From Spirochaetales bacterium (GTDB lineage: Bacteria; Spirochaetota; Spirochaetia; JAFGDJ01): a stretch of 53,241 bases of DNA. The DNA is taken from assembly GCA_016932135.1 (NCBI GenBank), contig JAFGDJ010000166.1, positions 1-53,241 of the forward strand, in the 5' to 3' direction. The stretch's first letter is position 1; every line of letters begins with the position of its first letter. Made by a program: the position numbers and the translations under genes. The notes under the pieces are model-generated. The model had not been told where the DNA came from and made no database searches. It was given only the letters and a program-made list of their open reading frames with translations. Positions 15,431-27,849 of the stretch are shown here, in pieces.

Positions 15431-15718
15431 ATGGAAAAACGCGCGTTTCAGGTACAATTGCTGGGTACTTCCTTTATTGTACAAACGGATGAAGACGCCG
15501 ATTATTTCACGCGCCTTTTGGATTACGTAAGCAAAAAGACCGACGAGATTGAATCAGCCGTACGGGTAAAAGATCCATTAAAAACCGCTATTTTAACATG
15601 CCTGACCATCGCGGATGAGCTTCACAAAGGCTTCGTTATGGATCAGGATCTGCATGAGGCCGAGAAGATAACCCTCAGCCTCTTGGAGAAAATTGACAGA
15701 AGTCTGGATAGTAGATAA
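15431..15718 (+). CDS. zapA: Cell division protein ZapA
   Basis: 95 residues. The N-terminal part (FQVQLLGTSFIVQTDEDADYFTRLLDYVSKKTDEI) matches the ZapA globular domain (V.I.G..Y.i....EEYL..lA..vd..i), and the second half is a long helix (TAILTCLTIADELHKGFVMDQDLHEAEKITLSLLEKIDRSL) for tetramer formation. ZapA cross-links FtsZ filaments at the division site. The gene follows the coiled-coil gene by nine bases and is followed directly by 6S RNA, an arrangement also found in E. coli and many other bacteria, which supports both calls. Confidence 0.88.
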   Translation: MEKRAFQVQLLGTSFIVQTDEDADYFTRLLDYVSKKTDEIESAVRVKDPLKTAILTCLTIADELHKGFVMDQDLHEAEKITLSLLEKIDRSLDSR

Positions 15719-15899
15719 CCCTGCGGTGTTCGGGAGGGGTTTATATCTCTTGGGTCAACCCATCAGAACGGGATTCCAAATCTCGGGGTTGAATGCTCTC
15801 CGCCTTGAGCGGTTCGGCACAGGATGCCCCGATGCGGAAACCCACTTGAACAATTGGAGTTCAAGAGATTTCTCCCCAAGCGGCATCGCGGGGATTTTA
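15714..15899 (+). ncRNA. ssrS: 6S RNA
   Basis: About 185 nt directly after zapA. The 5' end CCCTGCGGTGTTCGGG matches the conserved 6S start (CUGNGRUGUUCG), and the 3' end AAGCGGCATCGCGGGGATT matches the conserved closing strand (GGCGGCAUCNCGGRGAUU). CCCTGCGGTG pairs with CATCGCGGGG. ACTTGAAC-AATTGGA-GTTCAAG is the conserved hairpin near the 3' side, and the long stem is interrupted by an unpaired centre. 6S RNA mimics an open promoter and binds housekeeping RNA polymerase in slow growth. Ends are approximate; the 5' end overlaps the zapA stop. Confidence 0.85.
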
Positions 15900-17906: not shown

Positions 17907-17931
17907 TTTTTTTTATTCCTTCATCCTCCAT

Positions 17932-17959
17932 TAAAGATTAACACCCCCCCCGTCGATAG
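17932..17959 (+). promoter_or_regulatory. Sigma-28 (FliA) type promoter of flaB1 with a C8 tract in the spacer
   Basis: TAAA (17932-17935), 16 bases, then GTCGATAG (17952-17959), against the consensus TAAA-N15-GCCGATAA. The spacer contains eight consecutive C (17944-17951). Loss of one C would give the consensus spacing. The predicted leader is close to 200 bases. Confidence 0.6.
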
Positions 17960-17980
17960 AATGAAAAGAGGGTACTATCG

Positions 17981-18102: not shown

Positions 18103-18163
18103 ACCCCCGTTTAAGGGGGGTCAAGGGCAAGGATGCCCGAATACATTTTCACGGAGGATACGT
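18103..18163 (+). promoter_or_regulatory. flaB1 leader with candidate CsrA-binding hairpin and GGA-type ribosome-binding site
   Basis: ACCCCC-GTTTAA-GGGGGT (18103-18121) is followed by GGGCA-AGGA-TGCCC (18125-18138). The loop context CAAGGATG matches the CsrA consensus CARGGAUG. The Shine-Dalgarno CGGAGGA (18152-18158) supplies further GGA, 22 bases downstream of the loop GGA. This is the paired-site layout by which CsrA blocks flagellin translation. Confidence 0.65.
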
Positions 18164-19024
18164 ATGATAATCAATCACAACATGAGCGCTCTCTTCGCCA
18201 ACCGGGAACTGGCAAACACCCACAACAACCTGACGAAGAACATGGAAAAGCTCTCATCGGGTCTCAGGATCACCAGGGCGGGAGATGATGCTTCCGGTTT
18301 GGCGGTATCGGAAAAAATGCGGTCCCAGATCAGGGGCTTAAAGCAGGCTTCCCAGAATGCTTCCAACGGCATATCCTTTATCCAGTCGACTGAAGGGTAT
18401 CTCCAGGAAACCCAGGACATCCTGCAGCGCATGAGGGAACTGGCCGTCCAGTCATCCAACGGCATCTACTCGGAAGAGGACCGGATGCAGATCCAGGTGG
18501 AAATCTCCCAGCTGGTGGATGAAATTGATCGAATCGCTTCTCACGCCCAGTTCAACGGTATGAACATGCTCACCGGTCGTTTCGCTTCTGAAACAGGAGA
18601 GAATACCGTCACCGCTTCCATGTGGTTTCACATCGGAGCCAACATGGATCAGAGGGAAAGGGTTTACATCGGCACCATGACCTCTTCGGCGTTGAAGATT
18701 CGTGATCTTGGTTCCAACGAAATCCTGACCTTAGAGTCTCCCGAAGAATCGAACCGCGCCATCGGCACCATCGACATGGCCCTGAAGAAGGTCAACAAGC
18801 AGCGGGCGGATCTGGGAGCCTACCAGAACCGGCTCGAGCATGCTGTGCGGGGCCTTGAAGTCGGCGCCGAAAACCTGCAGGCCGCTGAATCGAGAATCCG
18901 GGACGTGGACATGGCTTCCGAGATGGTGGAATACACCAAGAATCAGATCCTTGTTCAGGCCGGTACGGCGATGCTCGCCCAGGCAAACATGAAAACCCAG
19001 TCTGTCTTGCAATTACTGGGGTAA
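18164..19024 (+). CDS. flaB1: Periplasmic flagellar core flagellin FlaB
   Basis: 286 residues from the ATG at 18164; the 42 extra codons in the track are leader. It begins [36 protein letters not shown] and ends [33 protein letters not shown], the D0/D1 helices that pack the filament core; the variable domains are absent, as usual in spirochaetes. No signal peptide, since it leaves through the flagellar export channel. ACGGAGGA precedes the start. The sigma-28-like promoter and a structured leader with a CsrA-like site indicate tight control. flaB2 follows 241 bases later and is very similar. Confidence 0.95.
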
Positions 19025-19050: not shown

Positions 19051-19105
19051 AAAAGGCTTGTAAGATCTTTGAAAAACAGACCCTCTTGAAGCCTATGAAA
19101 AAAAA

Positions 19106-19154
19106 GGAGAGTTTCCGGTTCGAGTTTCTAGAGAACCGGAAACCTCTCTTTGTT
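19106..19154 (+). terminator. Intrinsic terminator of flaB1
   Basis: GGAGAGTTTCCGGTTC and GAACCGGAAACCTCTC pair over about 15 bp with one bulge, followed by TTTGTT. It ends roughly 130 bases past the flaB1 stop. Confidence 0.7.
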
Positions 19155-19222
19155 GCACAGGAGCGCGAACGGAACGGAAGTGGCGCGACTTTCTTCCGGC
19201 TCCCCCTGATGCCGCATAGGAC

Positions 19223-19265
19223 AAAGGCCAAGGAGGCCTTTTGAATTATATCAAGGAGGGTATAT
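19223..19265 (+). promoter_or_regulatory. flaB2 leader with AAGGA-loop hairpin and GGA-type ribosome-binding site
   Basis: AAAGGCC-AAGGA-GGCCTTT is a 7-bp stem whose whole loop is the CsrA core ANGGA. The Shine-Dalgarno TCAAGGAGGG follows, with its GGA 23 bases after the loop GGA. The spacing copies the flaB1 leader although the surrounding sequences differ. Confidence 0.65.
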
Positions 19266-20111
19266 ATGGTTATAAACCACAACATGAGTGCCATGTACGC
19301 CAACCGTACTCTGGGTGTTCAGTCGGCTGCCACAGCGGGCAACATCGAGAAGCTCAGCTCCGGTATGAGAATTAACAAAGCCGGGGACGATGCTTCAGGG
19401 CTTGCAGTTTCAGAAAAGCTTCGCAGCCAGATCAGAGGACTGAACCAGGCGGAAAGAAACATTCAGAACGGCGTTTCTTTCATTCAGACAACGGAAGGAT
19501 ACCTGCAGGAAACCCAGGACATTCTACACCGCCTCAGAGAACTGGCGGTTCAGTCTGCCAACGGTGTATATACCGATGAAGACAGAATGCAGATCCAGGT
19601 TGAGGTATCCCAGCTGATCGACGAAGTGAACCGCATCGCTTCCCACGCCCAATTCAACGGCATGAATATGCTGACGGGTAATTTTGCTCAGGAAGGGGAA
19701 GGAATCATGCAGTTCCAGGTTGGCGCGAATATGGACCAGAATGAAAGGGTCTACATCGGCACCATGACGGCTTTGGCTCTTGGTCTTGAAGGCGAACAGG
19801 GGCTTGATAACGCTCTTACTATCGCCGATCCGGATCAGGCCAACAGGGCTATCGGTACCGTTGATTCCGCTCTTCAGAGAGTGTCACGGCAGCGGGCCGA
19901 CCTTGGCGCGTATCAGAACCGGTTCGAAATGGCATCAAAGGGTGTCGCCATCGCGGCGGAAAACCTGCAGGCCGCAGAATCGAGGATCCGCGATGTGGAT
20001 ATGGCTTCCGAGATGGTAGAATATGTGAAAAATCAGATTCTTACCCAATCCGGCACCGCCATGCTGGCCCAGGCCAACACCAAGACCCAGTCGGTTCTTC
20101 AGTTATTGTAA
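19266..20111 (+). CDS. flaB2: Periplasmic flagellar core flagellin FlaB, second copy
   Basis: 281 residues. It starts [59 protein letters not shown] and ends [32 protein letters not shown], so it has the D0/D1 helices only. It differs from FlaB1 mainly in the middle (about residues 135-200) and in the helix after the KLSSG motif. AAGGAGG precedes the ATG. I do not see a convincing sigma-28 promoter in the 110 bases after the flaB1 terminator, only a weak GCCGCATA. Spirochaete filaments usually mix several FlaB subunits, so the two are likely co-polymerised. Confidence 0.95.
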
Positions 20112-20192: not shown

Positions 20193-20215
20193 GGGAAGGC
20201 TCGCGCCGCCTTCCC
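20193..20215 (+). other. Hairpin in the flaG leader
   Basis: GGGAAGGC-TCGCGCC-GCCTTCCC is a perfect 8-bp stem between the flaB2 terminator and the flaG ribosome-binding site. No T-tract follows, so a leader structure or mRNA 5' stabiliser is more likely than a terminator. Confidence 0.45.
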
Positions 20216-26060: not shown

Positions 26061-27164
26061 ATGGAAGAGGATTTCTTTGCCGATCTGGAACCTCTGGAAA
26101 CGCTGGAAGAACTGGAAAACCTTGAAGAACTCCAGGATTACGGCGATCTTGACGTAACGGTCTTAGAGGATCCCTTTATCGCTCGACTGATCAGCACTTT
26201 AGACAGGAGTTCCCTCCCCTTTCTGCTCATCGATACCTCATTACGGATTCTCTGGAGAAACGATGCCTTTCCCCGGATGTTCGGGATGGAATCCTGCGAC
26301 GCGGGGAACCACCTTTTCGATCCCTTCGACGGCGTTCCCGGCTCTTCATCCGGACCGTCCTTTACCGAGGCCATAAAATCTCCTGAGACTGGTTTCAGTT
26401 ACCGGGGCCGGGTTCAATCTTCAGATCCTCATCGTCTTACCCTGCAGGCCAACATGCTCGTCTCTCCCCTTTTTTCCGAAGAAAGCGGCCATAAGGTTCA
26501 TCTGGGTTATTCGGTATGCTTCGATGATGTGACCGAAGAAAACAAAAATATTCTCCGGGGAACCTTCTTAAGTCTTCTCCATGCCTCGCAGATGAAGGAC
26601 AACGATACGGGAAAGCATATCAAACGGGTTGGAGAATATTCCCGTCTCATGGCAAAGAGCCTCATGGAAGACCCGGCCTTCCCCGAAGTAACACCGGAGT
26701 TTATCGATAATATCACTTTTCTTGCCCCCATGCACGATGTGGGGAAGATCGGCACCCCCGATGATATTCTCAATAAAGAAGGCCCCCTGGAACCCTGGGA
26801 GTGGGATGTCATGCGGGAGCATACCATCAACGGCGCCTATATCATGGCTACCTATCCCCACCCGATGGCGAAACAGATAGCCCTCTCCCACCACGAACGC
26901 TGGGACGGCTCGGGATACCCGTACAACCTCTCCGAAGAGATGATCCCCCTTTCCGCCCGGATTGTCGCCCTGGCGGATGTGTATGACGCTCTGCGGATGA
27001 AAAGAAGTTATAAGGAAGGCTTTCCGCATCAAAAGGCCATGGAGATTATACAAACCTCTTCGGAAAGTCATTTTGATCCGGCCATGGTGAATTGCTTCGT
27101 GAAACTTTCCGGGACGATTCGAGAAGTCTATGAATTGCTGAAGGATGAACCTGAAAAAGATTAA
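26061..27164 (+). CDS. PAS-HD-GYP protein, probable c-di-GMP phosphodiesterase
   Basis: 367 residues. A PAS-like sensor region lies at about residues 45-160 ([50 protein letters not shown]). The HD-GYP domain follows: [29 protein letters not shown] at about 224, [11 protein letters not shown] and [13 protein letters not shown], all metal and GYP residues intact. Such enzymes hydrolyse c-di-GMP to pGpG or GMP. An acidic coiled N-terminus ([25 protein letters not shown]) precedes PAS. AAGGAG lies 12 bases before the ATG, rather far. Converges with csrA; the two stop codons share the bases TTAA. Confidence 0.9.
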
Positions 27165-27400
27165 TTGGTTTTATCGGGCTTTGGAAAGATCACATCCAGC
27201 ACCGGCAGGTCCGTGCCCGCTGCCGCGGCGGCCCGGTTTTCCTGCTGAATGGCTTCGTAGACTTCATGCCGGTAGATCTTAACTTCTCGCGGCGCCTGGA
27301 TACCGATCTTTACCTGGTCGCCCCGGATATCCACGATGGAAATTTCTACCTGATCGCCGATATTGATGCTCTCGTTGACCTTTCTGGCGAGGATCAGCAT
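27161..27400 (-). CDS. csrA: Carbon storage regulator CsrA (translational repressor)
   Basis: 79 residues. [51 protein letters not shown] contains the full set of RNA-binding residues, including the N-terminal LILARK strand and the PREV.IYR.E.. strand. The dimer binds GGA in hairpin loops, often over ribosome-binding sites. It is last in the flgN-flgK-flgL-fliW-csrA operon and overlaps fliW by seven bases. In B. subtilis CsrA represses flagellin (hag) translation and is sequestered by FliW; Borrelia CsrA also represses flaB. The two flaB leaders here carry fitting sites. The tail after residue 55 ([20 protein letters not shown]) is longer than usual. Confidence 0.97.
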
Positions 27401-27849
27401 GCATCATTCCTTAAGGCAGCCAACTCATCGAGAATATAGTGCCGGACCTTCCAGGTGTCGTTGATCGAAACTGACTGTCGGCCGATTCTTTTTTCACGAT
27501 TTATAATAATGGGACCCTGAAGGTTCGCCGTCATCCGGGAATGATTCTCCGGAATGGTAACAATGGCAAAAACCAGGGTGTTGCTCCCGTCATCATTATC
27601 CAGTTCCAGTTCTTCCAGGTCCCCATCCTGGATATCCAGGGTATAATCGGGACGGAACACCTTTGGGTTGATAAGAACAAAGGCGATCTCGGGGACCTCC
27701 AGGGATTGAAGCCAGTAGAAGGGCTGCTGCACCGCGTCAAGGAGAACATATTCGCGGAGATTCTCAAATCCGAGAATACCGAAAGGAAAGAGAATCTTCT
27801 GACGTTCATCCACGTCCACCGGTCCGTAAGCCTTGGTCTGTACGCGCAT
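27394..27849 (-). CDS. fliW: Flagellar assembly factor FliW (CsrA antagonist)
   Basis: 151 residues. The family pattern is clear: [51 protein letters not shown], then [37 protein letters not shown]. FliW binds either free flagellin or CsrA, so flagellin secretion releases FliW to block CsrA and flagellin translation resumes. Located between flgL and csrA, as in B. subtilis and T. pallidum. The seven-base overlap with csrA suggests matched synthesis of the two partners. Confidence 0.95.

Follow-up and report, generated by a model that had tools for sequence, protein, structure and literature searches.

Control of flagellin synthesis by CsrA and FliW has precedents in Bacillus subtilis hag and Campylobacter jejuni flaA (PMC7652899, PMC4894983, PMC6529632). 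The hag leader contains two CsrA sites, BS1 and BS2, one of which lies on the Shine-Dalgarno (SD) sequence, at a spacing of about 20-25 nt (PMC8523840, PMC7652899). In the 5'UTR of C. jejuni flaA (SL1/SL2), an ANGGA motif occupies the loop of an upstream hairpin and a second site lies 21 nt away at the ribosome-binding site, with compensatory changes (PMC4894983). The spacing that CsrA can bridge extends from 10 to 63 nt and is optimal at about 18 nt or above (PMC7652899). In spirochaetes, the available parts of published accounts report repression of Borrelia flaB by CsrA and in vitro binding of CsrA to the flaB leaders of Leptospira, at a GGA overlapping the SD (PMC8668096), and mention CsrA sites near the flaB1 and flaB2 SDs of Treponema denticola (PMC9481697). 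The CsrA-type switch described below for flaB2 is therefore of a kind already known.

The locus studied here lies in a window (the whole stretch of DNA that was analysed, 53,241 nt) which is contig C187 of a 3.26 Mb genome assembled in 260 contigs. This window carries the tandem flagellin genes flaB1 and flaB2, the latter corresponding by gene order to Treponema flaB3 (a downstream tandem flagellin, as in the flaB1-flaB3 operon of T. denticola). It also encodes fliD and, on the other strand, flgK-flgL-fliW-csrA.

Anatomy of the flaB2 leader and its predicted regulators

The following features are used in this section:
18125-18138, + strand: upstream CsrA-type hairpin of flaB1, GGGC-AAGGAT-GCCC (sequence and folding; 81 leaders covary in one register)
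18150-18156, + strand: CACGGAG site on the flaB1 SD (sequence; CANGGAG context)
18164-19024, + strand: flaB1, flagellin (Pfam)
19223-19241, + strand: upstream CsrA-type hairpin of flaB2, stem AAAGGCC/GGCCTTT, loop AAGGA (sequence, folding, covariation in relatives)
19252-19258, + strand: second CsrA-type site, CAAGGAG, overlapping the flaB2 SD (sequence; CANGGAG context in flagellins)
19266-20111, + strand: flaB2, flagellin, downstream tandem copy (Pfam Flagellin_N and Flagellin_C)
27161-27400, - strand: csrA, no second copy found in the genome; product of 79 aa, extended at its C-terminus and possessing L4, R6 and R44 (search of the genome, sequence)
27394-27849, - strand: fliW, overlapping csrA, candidate CsrA antagonist (Pfam FliW; best structure match is the FliW chain of 5dmb)

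RNA folding of the flaB2 leader recovers a 7-bp hairpin composed of AAAGGCC (19223-19229), AAGGA (19230-19234) and GGCCTTT (19235-19241). An earlier note on this DNA had proposed exactly this structure, with the CsrA core as its complete loop, and its reading is correct to the base; the 23 nt that it gave between the loop GGA and the SD GGA likewise agree with positions 19232 and 19255. The SD itself, AAGGAGG, occupies 19253-19259, ahead of the ATG at 19266. Folding also yields a weak second hairpin, absent from that note, in which the SD GGA lies in the loop (UAUAUC AAGGAG GGUAUA, 19247-19264). Dinucleotide shuffling of the leader rarely produces an equally strong and suitably spaced GGA-loop hairpin (9 cases in 5000), and when both strands of the whole window were searched, the flaB2 hairpin was the sole one of its strength with an ANGGA loop and a CANGGAG 18-35 nt downstream, the weaker flaB1 hairpin falling below the strength cut of that search. 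In the flaB1 leader, the SD GGA lies 22 nt downstream of the hairpin GGA. The flanks of the flaB1 hairpin are unlike those of the flaB2 hairpin, as the note had stated.

Judging from its sequence and from the analogous systems, the flaB2 hairpin is very probably the upstream half of a two-site CsrA operator belonging to a CsrA-FliW-flagellin translational switch. The second half of this operator would overlap the flaB2 SD, and a single CsrA dimer would bridge the loop GGA and the SD GGA, thereby blocking ribosome binding. FliW would strip CsrA from the leader upon flagellin export, so that cytoplasmic flagellin would limit its own synthesis. Binding, bridging, repression and relief by FliW are here extrapolated from B. 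subtilis, Campylobacter and Borrelia. As in hag-type control, there are two GGA sites, one of them on the SD and the upstream one in a hairpin loop, and their spacing (23 nt in flaB2, mostly 21-28 nt in relatives) falls within the 10-63 nt range for bridging by a dimer.

The protein side of the comparison is also present in the genome, which encodes FliW and a CsrA with the RNA-contact residues and a C-terminal extension, both genes being located 7 kb from the flaB2 hairpin. The importance of L4, R6 and R44 for RNA binding is established for the CsrA of E. coli and Pseudomonas. The best solved relatives of this CsrA are 1t3o and the CsrA chain of 5dmb, a structure which is also the best solved match for FliW.

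The genome contains a third flagellin gene, on contig C33, whose leader carries the GGA-loop hairpin CAGAAC-AGGGAA-GTTCTG. All three flagellin genes therefore possess the site, and unlike B. subtilis hag, the system as known here from sequence involves two or three paralogous flagellin genes, each with its own element. Such a multiplicity, together with the titration of CsrA by the C. jejuni flaA 5'UTR (PMC4894983), would suit a leader acting mainly as a sponge that draws CsrA off other messages; a pure sponge, however, has no need of a second site on the SD. This explanation is very improbable as the main function, and sponge activity could rather be an additional role of the proposed operator than an alternative to it.

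Three side observations concern these genes and their surroundings. Unlinked third flagellins at seven other loci (L119, L124, L126, L129, L152, L153 and L160) have their GGA-loop hairpin at a distance of about 45-55 nt from the SD, and an apparent extra hairpin is inserted between both sites. Upstream of flaB1, at 17931-17960, TAAAGATT followed by GTCGATAG resembles by eye a sigma-28 promoter, which would imply a flaB1 leader of about 200 nt. A 6S RNA (Rfam RF00013, 65.8 bits) is found at 15715-15898, directly 3' of a zapA-like gene.

Conservation and covariation in spirochaete flagellin leaders

Protein similarity was the sole criterion for gathering flagellin genes, which came from 297 genomes of the class and from named genome contigs. 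Further loci were pulled in with a composed flagellin-like bait; their leaders were read but left out of the 216 distinct leaders counted here. A GGA-loop hairpin of at least 4 bp is present in 203 of these 216 leaders and was not found in the other 13, and the distance from the loop GGA to the SD GGA is mostly 21-28 nt. When at least 6 bp and a distance of 18-35 nt to the SD are required, the hairpin occurs in 157 of the 216, against about 1.3% of dinucleotide shuffles and 6 of 207 other genes with an SD, two of these six being out-of-frame readings of flagellin itself. CsrA and flagellin also tend to travel together: a comparison of two lists covering the 297 genomes gave both in 218, one alone in 11 and 3 (most of the 11 being incomplete assemblies) and neither in 65.

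To score covariation, leaders were placed in one register set by the loop GGA, and slid registers served for comparison. The flaB1 leaders are 86% paired, against 35-49% in slid registers, and contain 234 double-change cells against 28-98. Most flaB2 leaders belong to one of three loop registers, in each of which pairing amounts to 87-88%, against 25-55% when slid. Pairing is favoured in these figures, as leaders entered the set by virtue of the hairpin found in them and the flaB2 register classes are defined by it; the double changes are the stronger part of the result, in a set where related genomes are not independent. In flaB1 and flaB2 leaders alike, the stems vary on both sides and the loop GGA is invariant. 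The covariation test that the earlier note had proposed for flaB leader stems was thus passed.

Both tandem paralogues have kept the element separately, in about 95 leaders each and with differing loop registers. Since flaB1 and flaB2 prefer different registers, this separate keeping must be of long standing. The independent retention advanced in the earlier note holds in that sense; it describes an old shared architecture and not two independent origins.

The SD site is constrained in the same direction. The context CANGGAG surrounds the SD in 232 of 253 flagellins, against 25 of 199 other genes, and in the tandem paralogues the C at position -3 and the A at -2 are nearly fixed and position -1 varies. 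This pattern is not demanded by pairing with 16S rRNA; it is demanded by the CsrA consensus. A conserved second stem-loop at the SD, of the C. jejuni type, was also considered and rejected: flaB1 leaders are 71% paired there against a median of 43% over registers, with no excess of double changes. Unlike that of C. jejuni flaA, the SD hairpin here is weak and lacks covariation support. A covarying upstream hairpin is not described in the available parts of the Borrelia, Leptospira and T. denticola accounts (PMC8668096, PMC9481697). What is added to the known spirochaete CsrA sites is this candidate operator half, a covarying hairpin that precedes the SD in most flagellin leaders of the class.

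Terminator and stability readings, and the gut Treponema exception

The earlier note had set against its own proposal the possibility that the hairpin acts only as an intrinsic terminator, either for flaB1 or as an attenuator before flaB2. The 7-bp, G+C-rich stem followed by TTTT invites this reading, but four T do not constitute a terminator tract and the hairpin was not reported by the terminator scan. Among 82 flaB2 relatives, only 8 have TTTT after the hairpin and none has at least six T within the 8 bases 3' of it. Moreover, termination does not need an invariant GGA loop, and a much stronger stem is available further upstream, at 19104-19151. In the absence of a conserved T tract, a terminator was rejected as a highly improbable explanation, and the CsrA reading survives the objection.

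This upstream stem, located just 3' of flaB1, is very strong (-26 kcal/mol, z -4.5) and ends in CTCTCTTTGTTG. It may serve as the terminator of flaB1 or in processing, and an alternative pairing of its 3' arm with a GGAG further downstream is conceivable.

Another departure from the general pattern is found in many gut and rumen Treponema, whose flaB2-type leaders keep the stem with a loop reduced from ANGGA to ANGA by the loss of one G (L054, L060, L071, L087, L088, L093, L094, L117, L154-L156, L161, L162 and L170). The genomes of this group that were checked have for the most part retained csrA and fliW, as well as the flaB1 hairpin and the SD site. A stem maintained without its loop GGA, although csrA and fliW are present, may therefore have a further role. 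Either CsrA tolerates an ANGA loop, or flaB2 has escaped the upstream site and the stem serves otherwise.

These leaders also bear on the possibility that the main function of the hairpin is to stabilise the mRNA, to direct its processing or to hold the SD open, CsrA being incidental. The compensatory changes that preserve the gut Treponema stem after the loss of the loop G speak for such a role. Elsewhere, however, the loop GGA is kept along with the preceding CAN, which stability alone does not require, and the SD site follows the same consensus. A CsrA operator is preferred on these grounds, and a mainly structural role is considered unlikely. The gut Treponema, having lost the loop GGA in one paralogue only, represent natural experiments.

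A candidate loop pair before and after flaB2

A second hairpin of the flaB2 leader, separate from the CsrA hairpin, and a counterpart located beyond the gene were also characterized:
19175-19198, + strand: leader hairpin CGGAAG-TGGCGCGACTTT-CTTCCG, loop motif GGCGCGA at 19182-19188 (covariation)
20193-20215, + strand: hairpin 3' of flaB2, GGGAAGGC-TCGCGCC-GCCTTCCC, loop at 20201-20207 (model match, recurrence in relatives)

The leader hairpin sits between flaB1 and the flaB2 CsrA hairpin, in a region with no Rfam family. Alignment of the GGCGC regions by MAFFT and RNAalifold gave no usable structure, and anchored registers were used instead. Stem arms taken from the same species reach a pairing score of at least 9 in 36 of 75 cases, against 141 of 1852 cross-species combinations. 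In a set of 18 aligned members, selected because they pair at the register in question, the covariation score was 1.11, and no slid register exceeded 0.24. The conserved GGCGC block is unlikely to reflect a promoter, as its flanking arms vary with compensation. Around the hairpin, a 5' bulge, GAACGGA, is conserved in the window's relative group and lies within an outer stem; this bulged element (19155-19215) is not in Rfam.

The covariance model R1 misses the GGCGC hairpin of the flaB2 leader in the window itself, the loop of which exceeds in length those from which R1 was built. A covariance model derived from the aligned upstream members also matched the opposite strand just after flaB2, where the loop TCGCGCC is the exact reverse complement of the leader loop GGCGCGA. 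A hairpin with a GCGC or CGCG loop, mostly TCGCGCC, follows flaB2 in 64 of 65 loci, a few of these automatic picks being other hairpins.

The two loops were then compared in 72 pairs, each loop being anchored without reference to the other and the CGC/GCG core being fixed by the anchoring. One end of the loop combines an upstream G, A or T with a downstream C, T or A, and the opposite end combines G or A with C or T. Telling pairs are GACGCGAA with TTCGCGTC (L037), TGCGCGG with CCGCGCA (L030) and AGCGCGA with TCGCGCT (L020). At three variable positions, the observed pairing is reached by 0 of 2000 shuffles, and by 2 of 2000 on the 33 unique loop combinations, both of these shufflings ignoring relatedness. 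Imperfect pairs exist, including eight A-C mismatches at one position. A search that made no use of the motif, and that required the loops of an upstream and a downstream hairpin to be complementary over at least 6 bp, succeeded for 29 of 71 flaB2 genes, 1 of 71 flaB1 genes and 3 of 354 other genes. The isolated loop duplex is predicted to be stable, with a calculated energy of -12.7 kcal/mol.

This recurrence of opposed loops with compensatory changes in most flaB2 relatives suggests a conserved kissing interaction through which the flaB2 message would join its 5' end to its 3' end. The nearest precedent is the pairing of the 5' and 3' UTRs in Staphylococcus aureus icaR (PMC3868564, PMC5502269), where complementary segments likewise belong to one gene; here too, the segments before and after the coding region covary. 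Unlike icaR, in which a linear motif faces the SD, the present case opposes two apical loops away from the SD, the complement of the 3' segment being a leader loop about 80 nt before the flaB2 start codon. Literature searches found no report of a 5'-3' loop-loop interaction in flaB2. On balance, the covariation slightly favours the view that conserved kissing loops connect the two ends of the spirochaete flaB2 mRNA, and that CsrA repression, translation or decay depends on this joining.

A guess made on a single sequence has thus become a class-wide, covariation-supported candidate CsrA operator in spirochaetes, bacteria which build their filaments from several flagellins. The loop pair is a more novel lead than the CsrA site and, if the interaction is real, it would represent a novel mode of organisation for an abundant bacterial mRNA.
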